Shown: one piece after another, positions 11,396-13,931 of the stretch
Layout: each line of letters begins with the position of its first letter
Position numbering within the stretch: the first letter of the stretch is position 1
From: Chelatococcus sambhunathii
GTDB taxonomy: Bacteria; Pseudomonadota; Alphaproteobacteria; Rhizobiales; Methylopilaceae
Reading direction: 5' to 3'
Assembly (NCBI GenBank): GCA_031316315.1
Contig: JADBEO010000034.1
Coordinates: 1 to 46,074, forward strand
DNA length: 46,074 nt
Made by a program: the position numbers and the translations under genes
The notes under the pieces: model-generated
The model's database searches: none
What the model was told of the DNA's origin: nothing
The model's input: only the letters and a program-made list of their open reading frames with translations

Positions 11396-12520
11396 ATGGC
11401 GTATCGGCGTAACGGAGCCGCCCTCAGGGCGCCCATCGAAGCTCCCGCCCTCCCCCTCGACACGATCCTGATCGGCGACTGCGTCGCGGAGCTCGAGAAG
11501 CTGCCGCCGGCCTCGGTCGATCTCGTCTTCGCCGACCCGCCCTACAATCTCCAGCTCCAGGGCGACCTCCGCCGGCCGGACCAGAGCCTGGTCGACGCCG
11601 TCGACGACGCCTGGGACCAGTTTGAGAGTTTTTCCGCCTACGACGCCTTCACCCGCGCCTGGCTGCTGCAGGTCCGCCGCGTGCTGAAGCCGACCGGCAC
11701 GCTCTGGGTCATCGGCAGCTACCACAACATCTTCCGCGTCGGCGCGACGTTGCAGGACCTCGGCTACTGGATCCTGAACGACGTCGTCTGGCGCAAGACC
11801 AACCCGATGCCGAATTTTCGCGGCCGCCGCTTCACCAACGCGCACGAGACCATGATCTGGGCCGCGCGCGGCGCGGACTCGAAGGGCTACACCTTCAACT
11901 ACGAGGCGCTGAAGGCCGGCAACGAGGACCTGCAGCCGCGCTCCGACTGGCTGATTCCGATCTGCTCGGGCGGCGAACGCCTCAAGGGCGGCGACGGCAG
12001 GAAGGTCCACCCGACCCAGAAGCCCGAGGCGCTGCTCGCCCGCGTGCTGCTGTCGGCGTCGAAGCCGGGCGACGTGGTGCTCGATCCGTTCTTCGGCTCC
12101 GGCACCACCGGAGCGGTCGCAAGGCGCCTCGGCCGGCGCTTCATCGGCGTCGAGCGCGACCGCGACTACGCGGCCGCCGCGCGGGCCCGGATCGACGCGG
12201 TGACGCCGGAAGCCCATGACGCCATCGTCGCGGCGCCGGCCAAGCGCGAGGCGGCGCGGGTCGCCTTCGCCACCGTGGTCGAGCGCGGCCTCGTCAAGCC
12301 GGGCCAGCGGCTCGTCGACGAGCGCGGTCGCCACGAGGCGCTGGTGCGCGCCGACGGCACAATCTCAAACGGTACGGTCGTCGGCTCGATCCACCGCATC
12401 GGCGCCGTCGTTCAGGGCCGCGAGGCCTGCAACGGCTGGACCTTCTGGCATGTGCCGGGGCCGGCCGGGCTCGTCCCGATCGACAGCTTCCGAGACGCCC
12501 TGCGTGCTGAGGGGGCATGA
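11396..12520 (+). CDS. ccrM: Cell-cycle DNA adenine methyltransferase CcrM (GANTC)
   Basis: A 374-aa beta-class N6-adenine methyltransferase, the length of CcrM. The catalytic DPPY motif is at residues 47-50, the SAM-binding [10 protein letters not shown] near 230, [10 protein letters not shown] before it, and the CcrM-specific C-terminal domain ends with [12 protein letters not shown]. In alphaproteobacteria CcrM methylates GANTC late in the cell cycle and sets transcription of division genes. The last 129 bp (12392-12520) are repeated with 14 mismatches at 13803-13931, downstream of an amidase gene. This intact gene therefore may carry a tail contributed by the inserted unit. Confidence 0.96.
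12392..12435 (+). repeat. 44-bp direct repeat, left copy (inside ccrM)
   Basis: It is identical over 44 bp to 13803-13846 (begins CACCGCATCGGCGCC). Identity drops beyond it: the next 85 bp show 14 differences. An exact core next to diverged flank is what attachment sites of elements that replace a gene's 3' end look like. Confidence 0.9.
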
Positions 12521-12640
12521 CCGGCCCGCGCAAGAGCGGCACGGAAGCGGGCTACGTCGATACGTAGTTGTACTTTATTGCTATCATAGGTTGCGCGTCA
12601 TAGCCTCTCGCCGTGAATGCACGCGGGGAACGGGTGGCCG

Positions 12641-13636
12641 ATGTCGACATCCATGTACGGCTTTACAAAGCGTACGATCGCCGAATTCGAGGCTTGGATC
12701 GCCGGCGTCAGTGTCGCGCGCACCATTAGATTCGTTCAGATCCACCATACTTGGGTGCCGAGCTATGCCCAGTTTAGCGGCGGCAATCACTTCGACATGC
12801 AGCGCGGGATGAAGACGTATCATGTCTCGCACAATGGATGGTCCGACATCGGCCAGCATCTCTCGATCTTCCCGGACGGCGCGATCCTGACGGGTCGCGC
12901 GCTGAACTCCTCCCCAGCATGCATTTACCAGAACAATGCGAACGCGATCTGCATCGAGAATGTCGGCGATTTCGATTCCGGACGAGATGCGATGACCGCG
13001 GACCAGCGAACCGCGATTATCCGGGCGACCGCCGCTCTCCTGAAGCGGTTTGGGATGGTCGCGCGTGACTCGACCGGCATCGTCTATCATCACTGGTTCG
13101 ACCTAAATACCGGCGCGAGAACAAACGGCTCCGGCTCGACTAAGAGCTGCCCCGGAACGAACTTCTTCGGCGGAAACAAGGTCGCGAACTTCAACGCGAA
13201 CTTTCTGCCGCCGGTGCTAGCGGCCCTCGCGGGCGGAGCGCCGCCGATCGCGCCAGCCGCGGTCGGCGGGATCATCAAGTTCGCCTACGTCGACGCTGAC
13301 TTTCTCAACATCCGCAGCGGCCCGGCCACAGCGAACCCGACTATCTCGGCCAATGGCCGTGTGGAGTTGGGCTCTGTCGTTCGGGTGTTCCAGATCCAGA
13401 ACGACTGGTACAAGATCTCAAGCTCGCAACAGCACTGGATCTACGGTCGGCTCACCCACGACGTGACGCCAAAGACAGTGAATACCGACGACACAAACGC
13501 CCGGTCTGGCCCTGGGACAGCGTTCGCGATCGTAAAAACCTTCCAGAGTGGCGATGCTGTTTTCGTGCATGAAGCGCAAAACGGCTGGTCTCGCGTCGCG
13601 CCGGACCTCTGGATCAAGAGCACGCTGCTGTCCTGA
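12641..13636 (+). CDS. N-acetylmuramoyl-L-alanine amidase with two SH3b domains
   Basis: About 331 aa. The N-terminal half is an amidase/PGRP-like domain: IHHTW, then WSDIGQHLSIFPDG, VYHHWFD and KSCPGTNFFGG supply the expected His, His and Cys zinc ligands. It would cleave the bond between muramic acid and the stem peptide. A linker (GGAPPIAPAAVGG) leads to two bacterial SH3 domains marked by LNIRSGPAT and NARSGPGTAF, which usually bind cell wall. No signal peptide is visible, so export would need another route, as for phage endolysins. It lies inside the ccrM tail duplication. The ATG at 12641 is chosen; one at 12617 is also possible. Confidence 0.85.
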   Translation: MSTSMYGFTKRTIAEFEAWIAGVSVARTIRFVQIHHTWVPSYAQFSGGNHFDMQRGMKTYHVSHNGWSDIGQHLSIFPDGAILTGRALNSSPACIYQNNANAICIENVGDFDSGRDAMTADQRTAIIRATAALLKRFGMVARDSTGIVYHHWFDLNTGARTNGSGSTKSCPGTNFFGGNKVANFNANFLPPVLAALAGGAPPIAPAAVGGIIKFAYVDADFLNIRSGPATANPTISANGRVELGSVVRVFQIQNDWYKISSSQQHWIYGRLTHDVTPKTVNTDDTNARSGPGTAFAIVKTFQSGDAVFVHEAQNGWSRVAPDLWIKSTLLS

Positions 13637-13802
13637 GGCTTGCCCGCCACCCAGCGGTCACCGCTCGCCCCTCTGGGCGACACAGCTTGCGCCAGCGAAC
13701 GGCGGAACACTGATCGGAAGGGGCCGTCGACGAACCGCAGCCGTCACGGGGCGTTGGTGGCGCACTCATTTACGAAAGTGCAGTTGTCTGGATCCGCAGG
13801 TT

Positions 13803-13846
13803 CACCGCATCGGCGCCGTCGTTCAGGGCCGCGAGGCCTGCAACGG
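13803..13846 (+). repeat. 44-bp direct repeat, right copy
   Basis: Exact match to 12392-12435. It marks the right boundary of the amidase-carrying unit and the first 44 bp of the ccrM remnant. Confidence 0.9.
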
Positions 13847-13931
13847 GTGGACCTTCTGGCATGTGCCGGGCCCGGTTGGGCTTGTTCCGATCGACAGCTT
13901 TCGCGACGCCCTGCGCGCGGAGCAGGGGTGA
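13803..13931 (+). pseudogene. Displaced ccrM 3'-end remnant
   Basis: This 129-bp segment aligns without gaps to the end of ccrM (12392-12520, 115 of 129 positions identical) and still ends with a stop at the same place. It encodes [15 protein letters not shown] and, further on, [18 protein letters not shown] in place of [18 protein letters not shown]. Nothing upstream of 13803 resembles ccrM, so it cannot make a methyltransferase. Most differences are synonymous, which points to homologous divergence between two alleles and not to decay. Confidence 0.9.

Follow-up and report, generated by a model that had tools for sequence, protein, structure and literature searches.

A 1.4-kb piece of foreign DNA with one amidase gene entered the 3′ end of ccrM in Chelatococcus sambhunathii, as sequence comparison with its relatives confirms. 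We regard the insertion as real and of known geometry, reduced to a single gene and flanked by an informative decayed arm; that an integrase was involved we infer from the geometry. The window, by which we mean the whole stretch of DNA that was analysed, is a complete contig of 46,074 nucleotides from a 4.1-Mb genome assembled in 100 contigs. The features at the insertion are as follows.

11396–12520, forward strand: ccrM, encoding an adenine methyltransferase with a RAMA domain, 374 amino acids, intact frame (Pfam N6_N4_Mtase 2.3e-63, RAMA 8.2e-21)
12392–12435, forward strand: 44-bp identical block, left copy, equal to 13803–13846; putative crossover zone
12436–12520, forward strand: copy A, the ccrM tail probably brought by the insert, with 14 differences from 13847–13931
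12521–12616, no strand assigned: left spacer of the insert (best match besides itself in 13 genomes of the genus, E 0.18)
12617–13636, forward strand: gene for an N-acetylmuramoyl-L-alanine amidase (Amidase_2) with two SH3 domains, 339 amino acids (Pfam)
13637–13718, no strand assigned: right spacer, of uncertain ccrM homology (weak local alignment as far as 13642 with the ccrM of a single congener)
13719–13802, forward strand: apparently decayed, frame-shifted ccrM sequence matching about 12306–12391 (in-register alignment; the profile match reaches 13725)
13803–13846, forward strand: 44-bp identical block, right copy, equal to 12392–12435
13847–13931, forward strand: copy B, the probable native ccrM tail, now stranded (frame open to the stop; the flank beyond matches the relative G010)

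The ccrM product matches the NCBIfam CcrM model with an E-value of 9.7e-184, yet its 610 bits stay below the 830-bit cut-off of that model. The gene was matched in 60 of the 61 genomes searched, the source genome counted. Its last 129 bp (12392–12520) recur without gaps at 13803–13931, at an offset of 1,411 bp; these coordinates, first given in the initial annotation, proved exact, as did its count of no change in the first 44 bp and 14 substitutions in the other 85 bp. The differences had been called mostly synonymous, and 8 of the 11 differing codons are indeed synonymous between the two tails, with 10 of the 14 substitutions at third codon positions (P = 0.004 against one-third). The gapless match ends at the stop codon in both copies and leaves the same C-terminal length. 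In this the locus has the form of a replacement gene end, namely a 129-bp direct repeat that runs up to the stop with both tails open. Because tails A and B are both open and their differences are mostly synonymous, a functional-looking tail appears to have been supplied with the insert. An exact 44-base repeat at a spacing of 1.4 kb lies far beyond chance expectation.

The closest available relative, G010 (CcrM 97% identical), has a single ccrM tail and an uninterrupted site. It aligns with 11301–12512 of the window and then, from the same tail onward, as one piece with 13803–16762. When the 80 bp after each tail were aligned to G010, the sequence after copy B scored 27.5 and that after copy A −6, the latter against shuffles of the same sequence with a mean of −5.7 and a maximum of 9.5. 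All 12 congeners aligned at ccrM (G010 and 11 others) have one tail and none has both; at E 1e-10 the amidase was found in the source genome alone of the 13 genomes of the genus and in none of the 12 congeners. A single tail without the amidase in the congeners, together with the native flank after copy B, therefore marks this as an insertion that stranded the downstream tail. The search for a second ccrM tail was extended to larger samples with a query of 41 residues, which strongly decayed tails would escape: besides that of the source genome, none was found in the order sample (tail present in 386 of 397 genomes at E 0.001) or in the class sample (tail in 199 of 289 at E 1e-6). Phage records gave no match to the ccrM tail, 23 plasmid records matched it at or below about 61% identity, and three exact DNA patterns gave no match in IMG/VR.

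An assembly chimera at the shared 44-base block would be conceivable in an assembly of 100 contigs. However, a misjoin alone would not account for the substitutions in tail A together with the decayed left arm considered below, and the genome is estimated at 99.33% complete with 0.04% contamination; we regard a chimera as extremely improbable.

The second copy had been taken to start at 13803. This start is correct for the gapless 129 bp, but decayed ccrM homology runs left to at least 13719. Aligned in register with the ccrM gene of the same genome, the 84 bp before the second copy score 12, a value reached by none of 500 dinucleotide shuffles (mean −7.2, s.d. 4.1, maximum 8.0). Against the ccrM of G010 the same 84 bp score 10 (shuffle maximum 10) and against that of a second congener, G012, 8 (maximum 10); since neither score exceeds its shuffle maximum, only the comparison with the own gene gives a firm signal of decayed ccrM. 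A profile built from the DNA of the 13 ccrM genes of the genus stretches the match of the second copy left to 13725. Taken alone, this leftward piece is the best match in the insert and not significant (E 0.053), its weight coming from its in-register position. Over the full 166 bp left of the second copy the evidence is weaker (own-ccrM score 8, shuffle maximum 14), and the best match of 13637–13802 in the genus besides itself has an E-value of 0.006 over 43 bp in G002. The decayed zone at 13719–13802 contains gaps and its frame is lost. As read from these alignments, the second copy is made up of three zones, one decayed, one identical and one codon-conserved.

A frame-shifted stretch, 44 identical bases and 85 gapless, mostly synonymous ones lead us to reject the even decay of one duplication: duplication with even drift as the sole cause is ruled out, since the zones differ in decay. 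The step from 0 differences in 44 bp to 14 in 85 bp gives a Fisher P of 0.002, which becomes about 0.02 once the lower divergence of the block in congeners is allowed for (0.152 differences per site in the 44-bp stretch vs 0.304 in the part after it, 66 pairs). None of the 66 congener pairs is identical over the 44-bp stretch. Conservation alone would leave it without a difference with a probability of about 0.02, and from the tail and congener counts we estimate about 0.01 for drift alone. An old duplication of the 3′ part of ccrM (at least 213 bp) around captured DNA, followed by gene conversion, is a different matter and has a real, if lesser, chance of being correct. In that case the last 129 bp, and latest of all the 44-bp block, would have been refreshed by RecA-driven exchange, either with the intact gene or with ccrM DNA entering from empty-site relatives, and no site-specific enzyme would be needed. 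The score of the decayed stretch is highest, by a small margin, against the own ccrM (12 vs 10 for G010 and 8 for G012), as would also be expected from an in-place duplication. The two tails differ from the empty-site G010 at 18 and 19 positions, and neither this near tie nor a comparison across the congeners singles out A as the foreign tail. Polarised on G010, the 13 differences at which one of the copies agrees with it divide into 7 derived in copy B (4 at third positions, near neutral) and 6 derived in copy A (5 at third positions), a pattern that fits duplication and conversion. This reading, however, calls for at least two later events with their end at the block, and drift alone is unlikely to have spared the 44 bp on the estimate given above.

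We lean, at close to an even chance, towards a DNA circle that entered by a single crossover, most likely through an integrase of the tyrosine type, either supplied in trans or lost afterwards. A small circle with an attachment region derived from ccrM and with the amidase gene would enter ccrM, the crossover taking place within the shared 44-bp block. Chromosomal ccrM would then end in the tail of the circle (A), and the native tail (B) would be stranded 1.4 kb downstream. The circle sequence left of the block would once have been ccrM and may have decayed (13719–13802) because it was never part of a working gene, whereas the tail right of the block would stay codon-conserved because every integration makes it the 3′ end of ccrM. 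The crossover zone would have to remain identical, and the amidase gene would be the remaining cargo. One crossover of such a circle can account for all three zones; so can an old duplication with repeated recombination. We think it unlikely that the locus is instead an integrase-less minimal mobile unit moving by ccrM homology, whose left arm decays while selection on the host gene keeps core and tail and the amidase gene travels as a passenger.

The initial annotation had seen no integrase, and the contig is indeed without a PF00589 or PF00239 match; the source genome has eight tyrosine-recombinase (PF00589) and three resolvase/serine-recombinase (PF00239) matches, all on other contigs. The same annotation had proposed an element that entered ccrM and restored its 3′ end. 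The insertion and the stranded downstream tail stand, whereas an integrative element is a putative agent: the contig has no recombinase, and no integrase fragment, arm repeats or core symmetry were found. The decayed ccrM sequence to the left of the second tail also makes this simple account less straightforward. No integrase fragment is recognisable in the spacers of the insert, the two arms have no 8-mer in common and a core dyad in the 44-bp block is not significant (354 of 500 shuffles were as good), so that it is the geometry alone that argues for an integrase. A sister element at the same ccrM site was found neither in the 397 order genomes nor in the 289 class genomes. A tRNA-type attachment site was also considered and rejected, the window having no tRNA gene.

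Two Ku genes lie close together and in opposite orientation elsewhere in the source genome, outside the window (G000:C67:29956-34259). With these genes and with recombinases elsewhere in the genome, the insert could have arrived by integration in trans or by end joining. For the latter, a staggered break in ccrM would have been filled in and joined to a stray amidase fragment by the Ku pathway, so that whatever lay between the two nicks became duplicated, and a 2019 study by Dupuy, to go by its title, reportedly concerns non-homologous end joining and the acquisition of heterologous DNA. The presence of Ku is consistent with such a capture, as is the finding that, at other loci, relatives of the amidase gene occur singly and among unrelated neighbours. 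A single date of duplication predicts even decay, however, whereas the left 84 bp, the 44-bp block and the 85-bp tail differ strongly; moreover, the match reaches the stop codon with equal C-terminal length. We consider end-joining capture quite improbable.

A second patchy block lies downstream at 16763–17567 of the window, where two ORFs (150 and 115 amino acids) stand between mutY and a DUF721-like gene (names assigned by eye). None of the 12 congeners has a DNA match to this block at the site, and 11 have a spacer of about 80–145 bp there; relatives of both ORFs are found in the same place in G012, with 43% and 48% identity. The ORFs have no match in Pfam, NCBIfam or PADLOC and the ends of the block have no 9-mers in common. 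The block was considered as support for end joining and dropped because of the relatives at the same place in G012.

As first annotated, the only gene-like ORF between the tails is the amidase/SH3b gene (Pfam Amidase_2 1.7e-12 and two SH3 domains), and its codons are less G/C-biased than those of ccrM (GC3 0.77 vs 0.92). The insert as a whole has a GC content of 0.61 compared with 0.69 for the window. Residues H43, H44, H158, H159 and C178 of the amidase are invariant in five of five aligned relatives; some of them we take to be zinc ligands, as known from T7 lysozyme. In PHROGs the protein is nearest to phage lysis families. Matches in phage records are distant (3 of 50,697 records, about 31% identity), and, the amidase apart, nothing in the insert was recognisable as phage sequence. 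The gene occurs in 10 of the 397 genomes of the order sample at E 1e-12, comprising the source, four with full-length relatives (about 50–56% identity) and five with partial ones. At E 1e-60 the family profile matched the source genome only among 385 genomes of the class sample.

A scan of genome contigs returned 76 amidase loci, with full-length genes in Bacteroidota, Alphaproteobacteria and a few others, and the neighbours were chromosomal at the 11 loci inspected by eye. Among 35 loci hand-picked from 80, none had an exact flanking repeat longer than 16 bp within 3 kb, and six had chance-sized matches of 15–16 bp; on these 35 loci we reject a family of single-gene elements bounded by repeats. 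Given the chromosomal neighbours and the lack of flanking repeats, the amidase is a patchily spread chromosomal gene and by itself no sign of an element. At two loci, L058:8774-11762 (G060) and L083:6584-9744 (Roseibium), it forms the same trio, lying between a regulator-like and an esterase-like (alpha/beta-hydrolase-like) gene, both named by eye. At L060:9315-10589 about 100 bp separate the end of another relative from a tRNA-Ser gene, again without flanking repeats.

ccrM lay within the stretch examined at one of 67 amidase loci (65 distinct). This locus, in a Lentibacter MAG (L090:3557-10626), has a 48% identical amidase near ccrM and no second tail, in the order rnhB, ccrM, rsgA-like, alkB-like, amidase, mutY (rsgA and alkB named by eye). 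The neighbourhood is possibly a coincidence. It would otherwise speak for a Campbell-type RecA integration, in which a circularised fragment from a relative with the amidase just downstream of ccrM would produce the same geometry without an integrase. Against this origin are the rarity of ccrM at amidase loci, the absence of the amidase from all 12 congeners and the decayed left arm, which it does not predict, and we judge it very unlikely.

If an integrase acted, ccrM would be added to the protein genes that serve as landing sites and have their tail replaced, and the element, each time it enters, would have to leave the C-terminal RAMA domain of this cell-cycle methyltransferase intact. From the three-zone remnant one could then read, at a single locus, how selection acts on the arms of an attachment site that was taken from the target gene. 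If homology alone was at work, the locus would be a small natural one-gene transfer anchored on a gene present in nearly every genome of the order sampled, to judge from the frequency of its tail.

The icd gene of E. coli, the site of the prophage e14, is also used by phage 21. e14 enters icd after codon 362, with 165 bp duplicated, 12 changes (10 synonymous) and the frame open, and carries the integrase gene intE, as described in passages of PMC11148124; its excision proceeds via 11-bp direct repeats, according to part of PMC4759930. By these accounts, both e14 and the ccrM insert enter a protein gene in its 3′ part, bring a replacement tail and leave a remnant on the far side (icdC in the case of e14). 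They differ in that e14 is a prophage with intE, whereas the ccrM insert has 1.4 kb, one gene, no recombinase and another target. Decayed homology to the target gene beyond the block is a further difference from e14. For tyrosine integrases whose site lies within a gene, the block of identity may be as long as about 250 bp and attP brings a replacement gene end, as stated in passages of PMC10111431. Satellites and prophages with such extended blocks resemble the ccrM insert in their replacement gene end, but the islands treated in those passages usually encode an integrase. Genomic islands in dusA likewise target a protein gene and replace its end with island sequence; in contrast to the ccrM insert, they mostly lie at the 5′ gene end, and the only feature common to all of them is the integrase (passages of PMC4482086). 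In the open-access literature, no report of ccrM as a landing site was found in titles and abstract openings or in the relevant parts of PMC5537653, PMC6536676 and PMC9836097. As an integrase is absent and no sister element was found, we do not file the ccrM insert as a member of the e14/icd type. The class of mechanism is known; the target gene, the minimal size and the decayed arm set the ccrM insert apart.
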